From positions 1 to 41,842 of the forward strand of contig UQKE01000013.1 of assembly GCA_900541555.1 (NCBI GenBank): a DNA stretch of 41,842 nucleotides, in the 5' to 3' direction. The DNA comes from an uncultured Porphyromonadaceae bacterium (GTDB taxonomy: Bacteria; Bacteroidota; Bacteroidia; Bacteroidales; Muribaculaceae). Made by a program: the position numbers and the translations under genes. Of this stretch, positions 9,348 to 41,842 are shown in pieces (within the stretch, counting starts at the first letter, position 1; the number at the start of each line of letters is the position of its first letter). Under the pieces are notes generated by a model. That model was not told the DNA's origin. It ran no database searches and worked only from the letters and a program-made list of their open reading frames with translations.

Positions 9348-11594
9348 TTAGAAACCGGACCTGAGCAAGCGTTCGTATATTTTGGCGTCTTCTTCCAAGT
9401 AGCAACAGAGGATGATATCGCCTTTGTATTTCTTATTAGTTATGTGCTCTTTGATAACCTTCAAGGCTATTTGAGCTGCTTGTTCGTGTGGATAACCATA
9501 CGCGCCGGTGCTGATGCATGGGAATGCAATACTGGATAAACCGTTTGCTTCTGCCAACTTTAATGCAGTGTCGTAGCATGAAGCTAACAATTGGGCTTCG
9601 TCCCCTTTGCCGCCATGCCATATAGGACCGACTGTGTGGATGATTTTTTTGCATGGCAAGTCGTAGGCATCGGTCATTACACTTTCCCCCGTGGGACAGC
9701 CTCCAATGGACCGGCATTCTTCCAACAGTTTTTTGCCGGCAGCGCGATGGATTGCGCCGTCGACTCCGCCACCTCCCAATAGTGAATTGTTGGCAGCATT
9801 TACGATGGCGTCTACGTGTAGCCGCGTGATGTCGCCGATTGCAATTTGAATGGTTTTTCCCGTATCTTTCATGAATTTGCTCTTTTTCCAATGATAGTCA
9901 TGATCGTCCATGAATGTGTCGTAATATCTGTCAAGATCGTAAATGTCTTGCTGCTCTATTTCGCTATTGCAGGTCAGAGGAGCCGGTTTTAATGAGACAG
10001 GCTGAAAGTTGTCGTCTAATCCGATGGGCTGTCGCATTTTTTCTGTCCATTTTATGGAAAGAGAATGCCCATGGACGGGTTGCCCCATTTTTTCTTGCAA
10101 ATCATTGCGGGCGAATTTTTTTAATTCTATCCCATTCGGATGGTATGCCTTGACGCAAAGCAAATTTATCTTTTCTTGTTCAGATAATAGAATGAATCCA
10201 TGTGGCAATTGCAAAAGTGTAATTTGGGTTACACCTGCGAGTGTCGTTATGTCGTAAACTAAAAAATAGCAGTTGCGGTGGATAACATATTTTTCAAAAG
10301 AGAAATCAAAAGTTTTTCCACGATTGGCAGATTTTACGTTTTCTATATCGACTAATCTTTTGGACGCAATTATAAAGCGATATTTATGCACAGGACGCAT
10401 TAGTTGCATGGTGGCTTCAAGGTCGTGTCCGCATCGTAAAATCTTGCCTCGCTTGTAAAATTTTCGAACATCGAAGTTAATGTCAGTGTCGCGATAAAAT
10501 ATTTGTAAAGGATCTACCCATTCTCCGGTCCAATCACGTAGAGAGAGGAATGCGCGCTTTTGGCTGAACAGGTAGATGTGGTGCGTGTATGAGATACGAG
10601 GTTTGTATCTTTTTTCCAACTCTGTTTCGCTGATATAATTTTGCATGTGTTGCTTTGGAATGAATGGCAAGTAGCTATCGTAGTTTACCCATTTCTTGTC
10701 GTATATGCGGCGTGTGCCGTTTGGGTAAAGCAGATAAGCTGCTTGTTGGTCTTCAGCAAACCAGCAATCTTTGGTGTCGTAGTCGTTCCAATGGATGGCG
10801 TGATAAATGGGGCGGAAAAGATATTCCCCTGATTGTTTCAAGATGCCCATATCGTATTGTGGTTGTCCATTATGGAGAGTGACGGTTTTCCCATTGTCAT
10901 CTAAATGTACTTTTCTGGTGATGGATACTCCATTCTCAAAATGTAGTGGATAGTCGAATCTCTCGTTAATGATTGGTTTCCCATTGTATGCGGCAGCTCC
11001 ATACGAGGCATGATCCCAATTTATATCGTAAATTCCATGACGCAGCACAGGATCCATGCCATAATATTCAAAATCGTTTGCTCTGTTTAAGTTGCTATCG
11101 ACGAATATCCATTTGTTTTCCCAAGTTAAAGCCGGTGCTATGCCATTGTGAAAGACACGTATACTTTGATATTTGGATTTTTGTTTGGATAAAGCAGGCG
11201 AGAAAATTCCGTCTTCTGTCAAAGTTCCTTCAACGCCGTCTTCCCGTGTAGCAGAATATCCCCATTTTCGATGAGCTTTGATTTCTTTATAGCAAAATTC
11301 GGTTTCATCTTCCCCATATTCATTAACTAATCCCCACATGCCATTTTTTTGCGCTCTTGCAGTGCCACTGTAAAAGACGCCGAGGTGTGTTAATTTTTTT
11401 GAGTGGGGTATGACAATGTTGCCTTTTACGTCCAATGTGCCATAAATCCCATCTTTCAAGACGCGGATATATCCGTCATCGTCATAGTCTAAAATCTCGT
11501 CATAAATACAAGCTACGATTTGGTTGCCATGTTCATTTATTAGTCCGGCTTTCCCTGAGTCGTCATGCACTATGACAAAATTAGATTTGTTCAT
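9348..11594 (-). CDS. WG-repeat protein fused to a C-terminal macrodomain
   Basis: 748 residues, no signal peptide. Residues ~1-330 are WG/KWG-type beta repeats (KAGLINEHGNQIV, IYGTLDVKGNIV, MWGLVNEYG and weaker copies). Residues ~340-575 form a region I do not recognise. Residues ~580-748 are a clear macrodomain of the MacroD/YmdB type: IGDITRLHVDAIVNAANNSL, GGGGVDGAIHRAAG, GCPTGESVMTDAYDLP, HTVGPIW and CISTGAYGYP. Such domains bind ADP-ribose and often remove it from proteins or O-acetyl groups. The key Asn, the glycine loop with Asp and the STGAYG loop all look intact, so activity is plausible. The fusion architecture is unusual. It starts 11 bases after the SIMPL gene, so it is probably co-transcribed. 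Confidence 0.85.
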   Translation of the reverse strand: MNKSNFVIVHDDSGKAGLINEHGNQIVACIYDEILDYDDDGYIRVLKDGIYGTLDVKGNIVIPHSKKLTHLGVFYSGTARAQKNGMWGLVNEYGEDETEFCYKEIKAHRKWGYSATREDGVEGTLTEDGIFSPALSKQKSKYQSIRVFHNGIAPALTWENKWIFVDSNLNRANDFEYYGMDPVLRHGIYDINWDHASYGAAAYNGKPIINERFDYPLHFENGVSITRKVHLDDNGKTVTLHNGQPQYDMGILKQSGEYLFRPIYHAIHWNDYDTKDCWFAEDQQAAYLLYPNGTRRIYDKKWVNYDSYLPFIPKQHMQNYISETELEKRYKPRISYTHHIYLFSQKRAFLSLRDWTGEWVDPLQIFYRDTDINFDVRKFYKRGKILRCGHDLEATMQLMRPVHKYRFIIASKRLVDIENVKSANRGKTFDFSFEKYVIHRNCYFLVYDITTLAGVTQITLLQLPHGFILLSEQEKINLLCVKAYHPNGIELKKFARNDLQEKMGQPVHGHSLSIKWTEKMRQPIGLDDNFQPVSLKPAPLTCNSEIEQQDIYDLDRYYDTFMDDHDYHWKKSKFMKDTGKTIQIAIGDITRLHVDAIVNAANNSLLGGGGVDGAIHRAAGKKLLEECRSIGGCPTGESVMTDAYDLPCKKIIHTVGPIWHGGKGDEAQLLASCYDTALKLAEANGLSSIAFPCISTGAYGYPHEQAAQIALKVIKEHITNKKYKGDIILCCYLEEDAKIYERLLRSGF

Positions 11595-26456: not shown

Positions 26457-28751
26457 ATGGCAGATGTTACGAAAGAAATGGCTTTGGACTATCATAAAGG
26501 AGATAGGCCGGGGAAGATAGAAACAGTGCCGACGAAACCATATTCGTCGCAAAAAGATTTGTCGTTGGCTTATTCGCCCGGTGTGGCATATCCTTGCTTG
26601 GAAATAGAGAAGGACGCGAAAGAGGCTTATGAATACACGAATAAAGGCAATCTGGTCGCTGTGATTTCAAATGGCACGGCAGTGCTTGGTTTGGGCGACA
26701 TTGGCGCGCAGGCGGGCAAGCCCGTGATGGAAGGAAAAGCTTTGTTGTTTAAGATTTTTGCAGGCCTTGACTGTTTCGACATTGAAGTGAACGAGAAAGA
26801 TCCTGATAAATTCGTCCAAATTGTGAAAGCGATAGCTCCGACTTTTGGCGGCATAAATTTGGAGGATATAAAAGCACCCGAATGTTTTGGGATCGAAAGC
26901 CGTTTGAAAGAGGAATGCGACATTCCGGTGATGCACGACGACCAGCACGGCACTGCGATTATTTCAGCTGCCGGCTTGCTGAATGCGTTGGAAATCCAAA
27001 AGAAAAAGATAGAGGATATAAAATTGGTGGTCAACGGCGCGGGAGCGGCGGCAGTGTCGTGTACGAATCTTTATATCCGGTTGGGCGTGCGTCGTGAAAA
27101 TATCGTCATGTGCGACAGCCGAGGCGTGATTAACAGGAAGCGCACGAACCTGACACCGCAAAAAGCGCAGTTTGTGACCGATCGCGATATCGACACGTTG
27201 GAAGAAGCGATGGCGGGAGCCGATGTGTTTCTTGGTTTGTCGGTGAAAGATGTCATAACGCCGGAAATGATTTGCTCGATGGCAGAACGGCCGATTGTGT
27301 TTGCGCTTGCCAATCCGGATCCGGAGATTGAATATTCCAAGGCAATCGCGTCGCGTCCGGATTTGATATTTGCCACAGGCAGATCCGATTATCCAAACCA
27401 AATCAACAATGTGTTGGGCTTCCCTTACATCTTTCGTGGAGCACTCGACAGCGGCGCGACGGCGATCAATGAAGAAATGAAACTTGCTGCTGTTCGCGCT
27501 ATTGCCGGTTTGGCAAAATTGCCTGTGCCATCTGTCGTGAATGCTGCTTACAATATGTCGGGCGTCGGGTTCGGTCCGGAATATATATTGCCGAAACCGC
27601 TTGATCCGCGGTTGCTTACCACGGTTGCTCCGGCAGTTGCGAAAGCTGCGATGGAATCGGGTGTCGCTCGTAAAGAGATAACCGATTGGGAACAGTATCA
27701 TCAACGGCTGAACAGCCTGATGGGGTACGACACGAAACTGATGCGGCGTTTTACGGAATTGGCAAAATCGAACCCGCGACGCGTTGTTTTCGGCGAAGGA
27801 AATACCGACAACATGTTGCTTGCGGCTGTGGAAGCCCGCAGAGAAGGCGTATGCGAACCGATATTGCTTGGCAATGCCGAGATGATAGCCAAGCGTGCAG
27901 CAAAATTGGGTGTCGAGCTTGACGGAATGGCAGTTGTCAATCCGCGACATGATTGCGAAACAGAGCGGCGGCTGTCGTATGCAAAAATCCTTTCAAAGAA
28001 AAGGGAGCGAGAGGGATTCACGCTGCGCGAGGCGTTGGAGAAAATGTACGATCGCAATTATTTCGGCATGATGATGGTGGAAACCGGCGATGCCGATGTG
28101 TTTATTGCCGGCACTTATTCCAACCATTCGGAAGTCGTGTCGGTGGCGCGAAATGTGGTAGGCATCCGCCCGGGCTATTCGCATTTTGCTGCCATGCATA
28201 TCATGAATACCAAGCGTGGCGTGTATTTCCTCGCCGATACGATGATAAACGAAACGGAAGATTGCAGCACGCTTGTGGATGTGGCCCGACTGGCCAGTGG
28301 CGCGGTGGAATATTTTGCAAAAGAGCCTGTCATGGCAATGATTTCTTATAGCAATTTCGGTTCGAACAATGCATTGTCGCCACGCGAGGTGCATAAAGCT
28401 GTCGAGGAACTTCATCGCCGTTATCCGGATTTGTGCATTGATGGCGAAATGCAGGTCAATTATGCGCTGAACAAAGAAATCCGCGACAAAAATTATCCAT
28501 TCAGCAAATTGAATGGAAAGGATGTGAACACATTGATATTCCCGAATTTGAATGCTGCGTCGGCTGCTTATCGGATGATGCTTGAAATGGGGCTTGCAGA
28601 AGCGATTGGCCCGATTCAAATCGGGTTGAACAAGCCGGTGCATTTTATTTCTGTGGAAGCAAAGGTGCGCGATATTGTGAATTTGGCGACTGTCGCCGTT
28701 GTAGATGCGGCCATCAGCGGAAAATCAGGGAGCGCAATGTTCGACAGGTAG
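26457..28751 (+). CDS. maeB: NADP-dependent malic enzyme with C-terminal phosphotransacetylase-like domain
   Basis: 764 residues. The N-terminal ~430 residues are malic enzyme, which decarboxylates malate to pyruvate with NAD(P)H production: SLAYSPGVAYPCLEIEKD, GLGDIGAQAGKPVMEGKALLF, HDDQHGTAIISAAGLLNAL and the nucleotide-binding LVVNGAGAAAVSC. The C-terminal ~320 residues resemble phosphate acetyltransferase (RRVVFGEGNTDNMLLAAVEA, SNFGSNNALSPREVHKAV); in MaeB enzymes this part is regulatory, binding acetyl-CoA, rather than a proven transacetylase. A purine-rich GAGGAGAGAAAG precedes the ATG. It ends 6 bases from the stop of the convergent MFS gene with no terminator between. Confidence 0.94.
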   Translation: MADVTKEMALDYHKGDRPGKIETVPTKPYSSQKDLSLAYSPGVAYPCLEIEKDAKEAYEYTNKGNLVAVISNGTAVLGLGDIGAQAGKPVMEGKALLFKIFAGLDCFDIEVNEKDPDKFVQIVKAIAPTFGGINLEDIKAPECFGIESRLKEECDIPVMHDDQHGTAIISAAGLLNALEIQKKKIEDIKLVVNGAGAAAVSCTNLYIRLGVRRENIVMCDSRGVINRKRTNLTPQKAQFVTDRDIDTLEEAMAGADVFLGLSVKDVITPEMICSMAERPIVFALANPDPEIEYSKAIASRPDLIFATGRSDYPNQINNVLGFPYIFRGALDSGATAINEEMKLAAVRAIAGLAKLPVPSVVNAAYNMSGVGFGPEYILPKPLDPRLLTTVAPAVAKAAMESGVARKEITDWEQYHQRLNSLMGYDTKLMRRFTELAKSNPRRVVFGEGNTDNMLLAAVEARREGVCEPILLGNAEMIAKRAAKLGVELDGMAVVNPRHDCETERRLSYAKILSKKREREGFTLREALEKMYDRNYFGMMMVETGDADVFIAGTYSNHSEVVSVARNVVGIRPGYSHFAAMHIMNTKRGVYFLADTMINETEDCSTLVDVARLASGAVEYFAKEPVMAMISYSNFGSNNALSPREVHKAVEELHRRYPDLCIDGEMQVNYALNKEIRDKNYPFSKLNGKDVNTLIFPNLNAASAAYRMMLEMGLAEAIGPIQIGLNKPVHFISVEAKVRDIVNLATVAVVDAAISGKSGSAMFDR

Positions 28752-37954: not shown

Positions 37955-39793
37955 TTAAAGTTTTTCGATTTCCCAAACAGCGCCTTCTGTCAAGGAAAGG
38001 TAAATCTTTCCGTTGCATTTTTCGAATCCGTTCACTTCCGACGATCCGCACCGATATGTCCATAAGAGTTGATGCGTATCGGCATCAATGGCAACGATTA
38101 ATCCTCGGCGAGAACCCATGTAGATGACGCCTTCGTCTTCAATGACGATGCAAGGAGCATGTTCATATCCCAATCCGGCATCGGTGACAAATGCGATATT
38201 TGCTTCGTTTTCGTCGATCTTGGATGCAAGCAGCTGCCCGTCCATTGTTTTTGCATATACTAATTTTTTATCGGGCGAAAATCCGAAACTTTCGCGTGGA
38301 CGATATTTTCCGTCGAAATTTGTACGCCATACGACAGAGCCATCGTTGCGGTTAAGCACAGTCATGTAGCGATCGGGTGCTACGACTGCAACGCGATTGG
38401 CCGTGACGACCGGAACGCAGTTGCCGGGTCCGAGCATGTTGGCGGCGGAGCCGTTGTTCCATTGCCATTTGATTTTGCCCGTATTTTTGTCCAAGCAGCG
38501 CAGGTAAGTATCCCATGCGCCGAATATGACGTCGTTGCCATCGACTACCGGTTCGGCTTGGCAATAGTTGTTGAGTTCCGTTCTCCAAATGAGATTGCCG
38601 GTGCCGACGTTCCAGCATTCGAATTTTTTGTATCCGCCTTGATAGAGTTTGCCGTCGACTATGATTCCATCGGCCACGTAAGGACCTGACGATTTGTTTT
38701 CGCGAATAATGCGGCCTGTGGCTTTGTCGGCCCAAATGATTCGCTTGTCGGCCGTGGGGATGATGATGTATTCATCGCTGAGAGCCGGGCGCGAAAATAG
38801 GGATGCATCTGTTTTGAACGACCAAAGGAGTTCTCCGGTTTGGTTGTTTACTGCCTTTGCATATCCTAACGAGTTGCCAAAATAGATATTGTCCTTGTCG
38901 ACAGCAACGCGGGTGAAGATGGACGCATTGTCTTGGTAAATGCGGCGGATGGAGAATCCTTGCGGCATTTCGTATTCTTCGACTTTTGCATATTCAAATT
39001 TTGGGTGGGAAGTTCTCGCCGGAAATGCCATTTGCAATTTTGGCGCTTGTCCGAGCACCTTGTCGTAGACTTTTATGGAGTCGTCGGAAATGTGGATGTC
39101 GGAATAGCCGTATCCGTCGTTTTTTCCTGTCATGTCGAGGGCGCGGCACATGATTGCGTCGATATCACCGCCTTTATATTGACTGTAGGTGTGGTAGTGT
39201 CCGCAGATGTGGACGATGACCGGATATTTTTGCAGGATATTGACATAGTCTTGCCAATTGTCCAAATCTTCTTTGATGGGATAATGGTTGATAGAGACGA
39301 CGCGTTTGCCTTCGGTGCATCGTTTGGACAATTCGCTATCCAGCCAAATGAGGTCTTCTTGCTTGATATGGCCGTCGCCCATTTTCATGTATGGGCCGCA
39401 ATTGATGCCAATGAAAATAATGCTGTCCGATTCAAATACAAAGCGATCGTCTCCCCAAATGTCGTTGAAAGATTTTAAAGCGCTTTGCGACCAATTGTTC
39501 TCGTGGTTTCCGGGGATTACGTAGATCGGTTTCTTCAATTGGTCGAGGATGCTTTTCACGTTAAGCAATTGCTCGTCGCTTCCTTCGTTTGTCAAGTCGC
39601 CGGAAAGGATGACAAATTCCGATTTGTTCCCGTTGATTTCTTCAACTGCTTTTCGCAATTGTGTTTCGTTTTCATTGCCGGGGGTGACGTGGATGTCGCT
39701 TAGCAATGTGAAATCCAATGCCTGCATGCTTTGTGTGCAAAGAAGCAAAGCTGCGAGGAATGAAGAGTTTTTGATAATTGATTTTATGTTCAT
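37955..39793 (-). CDS. Exported calcineurin-type metallophosphoesterase with PQQ-like beta-propeller
   Basis: 612 residues with a signal peptide (MNIKSIIKNSSFLAALLLCTQSMQA). Residues ~25-260 are a calcineurin-like phosphoesterase with the full set of metal motifs: LLSDIHVTP, LSGDLTNEG, PGNHENN and ICGHYHTYS. Residues ~290-610 are a PQQ/quinoprotein-like propeller with repeated outer strands (TGELLWSFKTDA, TGNLIWRTELNN, TGKIKWQWNNGS, DGSVVWRTNFDG, THQLLWTYRCGS). The propeller probably serves binding, not PQQ catalysis. The substrate is unknown. Start 39793 is favoured over ATG 39832 because the signal peptide begins there and a -7 box overlaps the upstream region. Confidence 0.88.
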   Translation of the reverse strand: MNIKSIIKNSSFLAALLLCTQSMQALDFTLLSDIHVTPGNENETQLRKAVEEINGNKSEFVILSGDLTNEGSDEQLLNVKSILDQLKKPIYVIPGNHENNWSQSALKSFNDIWGDDRFVFESDSIIFIGINCGPYMKMGDGHIKQEDLIWLDSELSKRCTEGKRVVSINHYPIKEDLDNWQDYVNILQKYPVIVHICGHYHTYSQYKGGDIDAIMCRALDMTGKNDGYGYSDIHISDDSIKVYDKVLGQAPKLQMAFPARTSHPKFEYAKVEEYEMPQGFSIRRIYQDNASIFTRVAVDKDNIYFGNSLGYAKAVNNQTGELLWSFKTDASLFSRPALSDEYIIIPTADKRIIWADKATGRIIRENKSSGPYVADGIIVDGKLYQGGYKKFECWNVGTGNLIWRTELNNYCQAEPVVDGNDVIFGAWDTYLRCLDKNTGKIKWQWNNGSAANMLGPGNCVPVVTANRVAVVAPDRYMTVLNRNDGSVVWRTNFDGKYRPRESFGFSPDKKLVYAKTMDGQLLASKIDENEANIAFVTDAGLGYEHAPCIVIEDEGVIYMGSRRGLIVAIDADTHQLLWTYRCGSSEVNGFEKCNGKIYLSLTEGAVWEIEKL

Positions 39794-39829
39794 GTCGTAA
39801 AAAATTAGATTCTGTTTTTTAGCGTCATG

Positions 39830-39837
39830 CAAAGGTA
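39830..39837 (-). promoter_or_regulatory. -7 box (TACCTTTG) for the phosphoesterase gene
   Basis: A full TAnnTTTG match on the minus strand, 36 bases before the ATG at 39793. An AT-rich direct repeat lies upstream at 39864-39896. Confidence 0.6.
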
Positions 39838-39863
39838 GCGATAGGCGGACAATATAGGCGAGT

Positions 39864-39896
39864 TAATTAATATTCAAAATAATTAATATTTGAAAT
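39864..39896. repeat. AT-rich direct repeat upstream of the phosphoesterase promoter
   Basis: Two near-identical copies of AATTAATATT followed by YRAAAT occur back to back. On the minus strand they lie 27-60 bases upstream of the -7 box, where AT-rich DNA often raises promoter strength. No further function is evident. Confidence 0.4.
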
Positions 39897-39951
39897 TGCC
39901 CGCATTGTGCATGCCTTGGGAATCCGCATAGGGGGAGAATGTGTTAAGATG

Positions 39952-39995
39952 AAAGGCCTCGAAAGTGGTGAGATGAGACTACTTTGGAGGCCTTT
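39952..39995. terminator. Long hairpin downstream of fumarase (probable terminator)
   Basis: AAAGGCCTC pairs with GAGGCCTTT and, after one G/G mismatch, AAAGTGGT pairs with ACTACTTT around an 8-base loop, giving 17 pairs. It lies 22 bases beyond the fumarase stop. The T-rich tract (CTTTTC) is on the plus-strand side, and on the minus strand only TTTC follows, so as a fumarase terminator it is not ideal; it could also act on RNA stability. Confidence 0.55.
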
Positions 39996-40017
39996 CTTTT
40001 CCCATGAAGATGCTTAA

Positions 40018-41418
40018 TTATTTATTGCATCCGGCGCAACGAGGTTTGATTTGCTTGAAAAAGTCGTTGCCTTTGTCGTCCACAAGGATGAATGCGGGGA
40101 AGTCTTCCACGCGAATTTTCCAAATGGCTTCCATTCCCAATTCCGGATATTCCACGCACTCGATGCTTTTGATGTTGTTTTGCGCAAGGATGGCTGCCGG
40201 TCCTCCGATGCTTCCGAGGTAGAAGCCGCCATATTTCTTGCAAGCATCGGTCACTTGTTGCGAACGGTTTCCTTTTGCCAGCATCACCATGCTTCCGCCG
40301 TGGCTTTGAAAAAGGTCGACATACGGGTCCATTCGTCCTGCGGTTGTCGGTCCCATGGAGCCGCACGCCATTCCGGCCGGTGTTTTTGCCGGACCGGCGT
40401 AGTATACGGGATGATTTTTGAAATATTCCGGAAGGTCTTCGCCTCTATCGATGCGTTCTTTGAGTTTCGCATGCGCGATGTCGCGCGCTACGATGATTGT
40501 GCCGTTGAGCGACAAGCGAGTGGATACCGGATATTTTGTCAGTTCTTTGAGTATTTCCGGCATCGGGCGGTCGAGGTCGATTTTCACGGCATTGCCTTCG
40601 CCTGCATTTCTTAATTCTTCAGGGATTAATTCGCCCGGATTGTTATCGAGCTTTTCAATCCAAATGCCGTCTTTGTTGATTTTGCATTTGATGTTGCGGT
40701 CGGCAGAGCAGGACACACCCAACCCGACAGGGCATGAAGCTCCATGGCGCGGAAGGCGAATTATCCTGACGTCGTGTGCAAAATATTTTCCGCCGAATTG
40801 TGCGCCGAGCCCGATGTTGTGTGCTTCTTCCAATACTTGTTTTTCAAGCTCTATGTCGCGGAATGCCCGGCCGGTTTCGTCGCCGGTTGTCGGCAGGTTG
40901 TCGTAGTAGTGGGTAGAAGCCAATTTGACGGTGAGCAAGTTTTTTTCAGCCGAAGTGCCGCCAATCACGAAAGCGATATGGTACGGCGGACATGCGGCGG
41001 TGCCCAGCGTTTTCATTTTCTCAACGAGGAATGGCACCAATGTCTTGGGGTTGAGGATGGCTTTTGTCTCTTGGTAGAGATATGTTTTGTTGGCAGAGCC
41101 GCCGCCTTTTGTGACGCACAAGAAGCGGTATTCCATGCCTTCGGTCGATTCGAGGTCGATTTGCGCGGGAAGGTTGCACTTGGTGTTGACTTCCTCATAC
41201 ATGGAAAGGGGTGCATTTTGCGAATAGCGCAGGTTGTTTTCCGTGTAGGTCTTGTATACGCCTAATGCGAGCGCTTCTTCGTCGCAATAGCCTGTCCACA
41301 CCTGTTGCCCTTTTTCGCCATGAATGATGGCAGTCCCCGTGTCTTGGCAGAATGGCAACACGCCTTTGCTTGCCACGTCGGCATTGCGCAGGAATGTGAG
41401 CGCCACGTATTTTCTCAT
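40018..41418 (-). CDS. Class I fumarate hydratase, N-terminus missing
   Basis: About 466 residues of fumarase remain, from roughly the ATG at 41418 ([12 protein letters not shown]) to the stop at 40018. The enzyme interconverts fumarate and malate with an oxygen-sensitive 4Fe-4S cluster. Cluster and active-site segments are intact: [38 protein letters not shown] and [17 protein letters not shown], and the C-terminus ([10 protein letters not shown]) is complete. Bacteroidales homologues have ~80 more residues before RKYVAL. Here that part is replaced in frame by an unrelated sequence with a membrane helix (the assembled frame runs to ATG 41658). This is most likely an assembly chimera rather than a real fusion. 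Confidence 0.9.
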
Positions 41419-41664
41419 ATCGGTCTCCTTCTCCCGTACCATGTCCGATTTTCCCGCTGCAACTTCTCTCTCTTTTCTGCCGTCTCTTTTTTCCTGCTCC
41501 CCTGACTCCCTCTCTTCTTTATTTCTTTCATGATACACGTCTCCCTTAAAATCCTTTTCCCCATCTTCTCCTTTCCACATCCGCAAGGTCACGCCGCACA
41601 GGATCAGATCCACAACTACGATCACCAGAAACAGAACGATTTTCTGTCTGAATTTCATTGATAC

Positions 41665-41670
41665 CTCCTG
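41665..41670 (-). promoter_or_regulatory. Strong Shine-Dalgarno sequence (AGGAGG) before ATG 41658
   Basis: The minus strand reads GGCAGGAGGTATCAATG, with the AGGAGG core about six bases before the ATG. Such sites are normal in Firmicutes and rare in Bacteroidetes, so it marks the segment as foreign to the rest of the window. Confidence 0.8.
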
Positions 41671-41765
41671 CCTACCTGTTTTCCCATCTCATTTTATAAA
41701 TATATGCGCGTGATCGTTTTCCTTTCCTCTCCCAAAAAGAAATACACATGACACTCCCAAACAGA

Positions 41766-41815
41766 CAGAACCCCTGAAACAGCGATATTGGGGATCGTCT
41801 GCCTCAGGGGTTCTG
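41766..41815. terminator. Long perfect-arm hairpin in the foreign segment
   Basis: CAGAACCCCTGA (41766-41777) pairs perfectly with 41804-41815, and inside it CAGCGAT pairs with ATCG-T-CTG with one bulge. No T-run follows on either strand, so it may be a terminator of an upstream gene or a mobile palindromic element of the other genome. Confidence 0.4.
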
Positions 41816-41842
41816 CGCTCAATATGTATCATCTTTTCCCTT

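Follow-up and report, generated by a model that had tools for sequence, protein, structure and literature searches.

Our analysis indicates, with a probability of roughly 94%, that the open reading frame at the end of the window (the whole stretch of 41,842 nucleotides that was analysed) is an artificial chimera of two genomes made at a short coincidental match, and that the "membrane fumarase" it spells out corresponds to no real protein. About 430 bases, the last of the window beyond 41412, would belong to another organism than the rest. In this interpretation a Bacteroidales fumarase gene would have been fused to the beginning, with its upstream DNA, of a gene for a membrane-anchored polysaccharide deacetylase of the peptidoglycan type, probably from Bacillota. 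The fusion point would lie within 21 nt or fewer that specify KYVALTF in either gene, a motif that the deacetylase continues as KYVALTF-DDGP. We infer that an assembler made the join, or that template switching in amplification did, rather than an event in a cell. A joining at KYVALTF accounts for the frame being open as well as for the normal length of the product. Each side of the joint belongs to an intact, separate parent family, and six lines of evidence support the chimera: the deacetylase parent, the native N-termini of fumarases, the word common to both proteins, a switch in codon usage, an outlying tetranucleotide composition and the lack of a second example of the joint in one search. 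The features involved are collected in Table 1.

Table 1. Parts of the putative chimeric gene and of the DNA upstream of it (positions in the window).
Feature	Position	Strand	Basis
Chimeric ORF	40018..41658	minus	546 aa, ATG at 41658
Deacetylase-derived N-terminus, codons 1-82	41413..41658	minus	87/89 match to P0001; break in composition and codon usage
Joint, codons 83-89, KYVALTF, common to both parent proteins	41392..41412	minus	At most 21 nt of common DNA, inferred from flanking codons
Class I fumarase body, Bacteroidales-type, codons 90-546 and stop	40018..41391	minus	Pfam PF05681 and PF05683, NCBIfam, identity
Ribosome-binding site AGGAGG from the deacetylase parent, with 5 nt between it and the ATG	41664..41669	minus	Sequence
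DNA preceding the deacetylase gene in its parent, with no coding sequence seen and a strong hairpin at 41757-41822	41659..41842	minus	Sequence, fold

The N-terminal side of the frame leads to a deacetylase. When residues 1-95 were searched against about 5.8 billion proteins within a length window of about 165-525 aa, 85 candidates gave 49 matches, 47 of which carry a precomputed assignment to PF01522 (polysaccharide deacetylase). The best match is P0001, a protein of 265 aa that has 87 of residues 1-89 in common with the chimera, differs from it at every one of residues 90-95 and reads KYVALTF-DDGPNSRYTK. The motif K[YF]VALTFDDGP is present in 46 of the 49 matches, and P0042 and P0046 have a single changed residue within it. 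P0001 itself matches PF01522 with 113.6 bits; its best two NCBIfam models are PgdA and PdaB, with all nine listed models below their cut-offs, and among proteins of solved structure its closest relative is 2c1g, a peptidoglycan GlcNAc deacetylase. Because these families point to Gram-positive bacteria, the owner of the deacetylase was probably Gram-positive and a member of Bacillota. The sequence-only reading had called this end of the frame "Firmicutes-like", which fits both the protein families and the AGGAGG site. It had also described an "unrelated" stretch of about 80 residues: the stretch is indeed foreign to fumarase, but it can be identified as deacetylase, and that identity runs past the joint as far as F89 (41392). 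By eye, codons 1-82 contain a membrane helix and a linker rich in Glu, Lys and Arg. After KYVALTF the chimera departs from the deacetylase family, and a Pfam search of the chimeric ORF gave no match to PF01522, the NodB domain with its TFDDGP being absent; the DDG motif of these deacetylases is catalytic. A Pfam match to MAP17 in the ORF was rejected as chance (E 0.23, below cut-off). Among the 49 matches, P0048 switches after NKEEN from the deacetylase N-terminus to the final part of a prephenate dehydrogenase (PF20463), and is apparently a second chimera made from the same deacetylase gene.

The start of the frame carries the signals of the same parent. The ATG at 41658 with an AGGAGG site (41669-41664) is present as the sequence-only reading had described it, and an AGGAGG within 20 nt upstream was found for the chimeric ORF and for none of the 26 other window ORFs taken as genes, a count that depends on mechanically assigned starts, some of which may be wrong. 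A near match precedes the ORF at 26457. Further upstream, in the DNA assigned to the deacetylase parent, the minus-strand hairpin lies within a 113-nt fold of -49.7 kcal/mol (z -5.94). Rfam gave no match in the upstream region at E up to 1, promoter and terminator scans of that region were negative, and the hairpin is followed by no T run that the scan accepted.

The remainder of the frame is a class I fumarase. Residues 83-546 retrieved 7999 proteins, and the best 120 of these include proteins of Prevotella, Alloprevotella and Parabacteroides, with a top identity over this range of 91.4% among those 120; the window's own protein is not among them. Both fumarase domains are present in the chimeric ORF, PF05681 (245.3 bits, residues 71-325) and PF05683 (290.5 bits, residues 331-536), the first of them starting at profile position 24 of 270 in the chimera compared with position 4 in the normal relative P0057. 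The first residue with fumarase homology is K83 (41412), no more than 2 nt from the limit that had been proposed for the stretch running from 40018 to about 41414. The best NCBIfam match starts at residue 78 and scores 900.6 bits in the chimera, against a start at residues 1-6 and 996.4-1030.2 bits in all six normal relatives. On all three full-length NCBIfam class I models the chimera scores below the cut-off (900.6 against 1094, 898.3 against 1105 and 789.6 against 1060), and we had considered this as a sign of the missing N-terminus; since the six normal relatives are likewise below the cut-offs, the cut-off does not discriminate and the argument was dropped.

What the chimeric ORF does not have is the native fumarase N-terminus of about 80 residues. 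In 13 of 13 aligned fumarases, chosen from the best 120 of 7999, a native N-terminus is followed by NDKYVALT, which bears out the earlier statement that class I fumarases have an N-terminal part of this size before KYVAL. From residue 8 of P0057 onward this part aligns to a solved enzyme, 5l2r, which we take to be from Leishmania. Among the 120 listed fumarases, 109 have D-KYVALTF exactly, before LRN, ten have the Asp with a variant of the motif (KYVALQF in five), and one, P0077, reads KYIALTF. By string test 108 of the 120 carry the native N-terminal signature, and 11 of the remaining 12 have a variant N-terminus of that kind, so that by string or by eye the native part is kept in 119 of the 120. 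The sole listed entry without it, P0052, has a repeated KYVALTF region there instead. Other irregular fumarase entries were seen as well: P0051 has an internal repeat of about 60 residues, P0092 has the front end of a POT transporter, and P0139 has an esterase-like tail that scores below the Pfam cut-off. It is possible that these three and P0052 are assembly errors or fusions among the listed matches.

The identities to the two parents overlap at residues 83-89, KYVALTF (41412-41392), and these seven common residues refine the joint beyond the boundary given in the sequence-only reading. KYVALTF is the longest word, and the sole word of at least five residues, that P0001 has in common with each of six fumarases. 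When the pair P0001 and P0057 was shuffled 200 times, the longest common word was 3 to 6 residues long, with six residues reached in 2 of the 200 shuffles and seven in none. The first residue of the motif is number 83 in the deacetylase and, depending on the protein, number 82 or 84 in the six fumarases; because it sits near residue 83 in both proteins, the ORF has near-normal length, and because the match lies in codons of the same phase, the frame stays open. This accounts for the earlier observation that 546 residues is the normal length of a fumarase, so that a check on length is blind to the error. On either side of the motif the codons of the parents differ. The residue before it is Asp (GAY) in all 119 pattern-matching fumarases as compared with Arg (AGA) in the window, and the residue after it is Asp (GAY) in the deacetylase as compared with Leu (CTG) in the window. 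If the parents follow their relatives, these differences would limit the common DNA to at most 21 nt (41412-41392), over which the two parents would presumably have been identical. The exact 21-mer of the joint is absent from genome_contigs and viral_contigs. A k of 21 is the starting value for several de Bruijn assemblers.

Codon usage changes at the same place. Codon preferences were trained on 26 genes elsewhere in the window; on that scale codons 90-546 score +0.176 and codons 1-82 score -0.121, lower than any of 255 stretches of 82 codons taken from those 26 genes. Within the first 200 codons the best change point falls after codon 82, with 86, 84, 83, 87 and 80 close behind. Before the joint arginine is encoded by AGA six times, CGG twice and AGG once, and after it by CGC in 12 of 19 cases. 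The tetranucleotide comparison of the two sides, which the sequence-only reading had put forward, marks 41392-41842 (451 bases) as an outlier: its L1 distance from the window's profile is greater than that of all 819 background windows, which overlap one another, and 184 of the 451 bases are non-coding, which may add to the distance. By likelihood, one of the 819 background windows is as extreme. The claim that two genomes have been joined is supported by parent families, shared word, codon switch and composition. Two other minus-strand proteins of the window were noticed: next to the fumarase, one in which a calcineurin-like phosphoesterase and a PQQ/BamB-like beta-propeller are fused (37955-39832), and a 748-aa protein (9348-11594) that combines a WG repeat with a macro domain at its C-terminus.

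A second copy of the joint was looked for at the protein level. Residues 1-82 searched among proteins of about 300-955 aa, in the same 5.8 billion, gave 24 candidates and none at E of 0.01 or below, in a result from which the window's own protein is itself absent, so that it has no positive control, and in which clustering at 90% might conceal a rare copy. In a search for the DNA of the parents, the N-terminal 91 residues gave 73 pattern matches in genome_contigs and no relative by tblastn. P0001 had no pattern match in viral_contigs, where the fumarase body had five, none of which proved to be a relative. At the DNA level, neither plasmids nor phages contained a match to window positions 41395-41842, and E. 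coli contained none to positions 39000-41842. Plasmid-borne deacetylases were considered as a source of the parent DNA and set aside as too distant, with identity below 60% in all 406 records.

The question of how the two genomes came together has more than one answer. The two pieces may have been joined in the laboratory, by template switching in whole-genome amplification or library PCR, with the assembler merely copying the product. This is a variant of the main reading, and the modest share of probability that we give it, well short of even, is counted inside that of the main reading. Short shared stretches at a joint are a typical leftover of template-switching events, so that the KYVALTF overlap fits such an origin equally well; the sequence gives no separation of this origin from an assembly error, and the direct in-frame joining is neutral. 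For the final stage of an assembly graph, 21 nt or fewer in common is a short match, and another cause, such as an amplification chimera or a contig end of low coverage, may be at work.

A real recombination in a Bacteroidales cell, in which a transferred deacetylase fragment would have produced a membrane-anchored fumarase, is a very improbable origin, worth a few chances in a hundred, much as the sequence-only reading had judged it possible but unlikely. In keeping with such an event, no stop interrupts the frame across the joint, a ribosome-binding site precedes the start and the sequence spells out an intact membrane helix. Yet codon use and composition mark the 5' part as foreign, and it brings an AGGAGG signal of its own, and the event would have removed the roughly 80 residues that all 13 aligned relatives keep and that can be aligned to 5l2r. 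Moreover, the search with residues 1-82 gave no second example, and the joint lies 430 bases from the end of the window, a place where, if it is a contig end, assembly errors would be expected to gather. That a Bacteroidales population carries such an in-frame recombinant, with the anchor and linker of the deacetylase in place of the fumarase N-terminus and the enzyme tethered to the membrane, all through at most 21 nt, is slightly less probable again. Finally, a natural fumarase variant with an unusual N-terminus and no joining event, to which the normal total length would lend itself, can be dismissed for practical purposes, as the N-terminus agrees at 98% of positions with that of an intact deacetylase from a different family, which would not be expected of a natural fumarase.

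If the artificial chimera is the correct explanation, the gene is an artefact of no biological importance or novelty. Its use is as a caution that a chimera can pass checks of length, frame and domain content when two unrelated proteins share a motif equally far from their starts. Unless the reads say otherwise, both a membrane-anchored fumarase and the use of the last 430 bases as part of this organism's genome should be dropped.

Set beside known systems, the product resembles two families in part. As in class I (two-domain, FumA-type) fumarate hydratases, residues 83-546 match PF05681/PF05683 and the NCBIfam class I models, whereas the native first 80 or so residues are replaced by residues 1-82 of a deacetylase. 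Residues 1-89 correspond to the anchor, the linker and the first domain residues of a PF01522 NodB deacetylase, with the difference that the domain is truncated immediately before the DDG motif. Going by the cited passages, interspecies chimeric contigs have been described for short-read metagenome assemblers and join mostly related organisms (PMC3100316, PMC7299287). The present case would be like those chimeric contigs in that sequence of two organisms is joined at a common stretch (PMC3100316, PMC7299287), and of the readings considered this one agrees best with the anatomy of the joint. It would differ from what those passages describe in that the parents here look like members of different phyla, which places it at the far end of the range, and in that the joint falls in coding phase and at equal distance from both starts, so that the product passes as a full-length gene.
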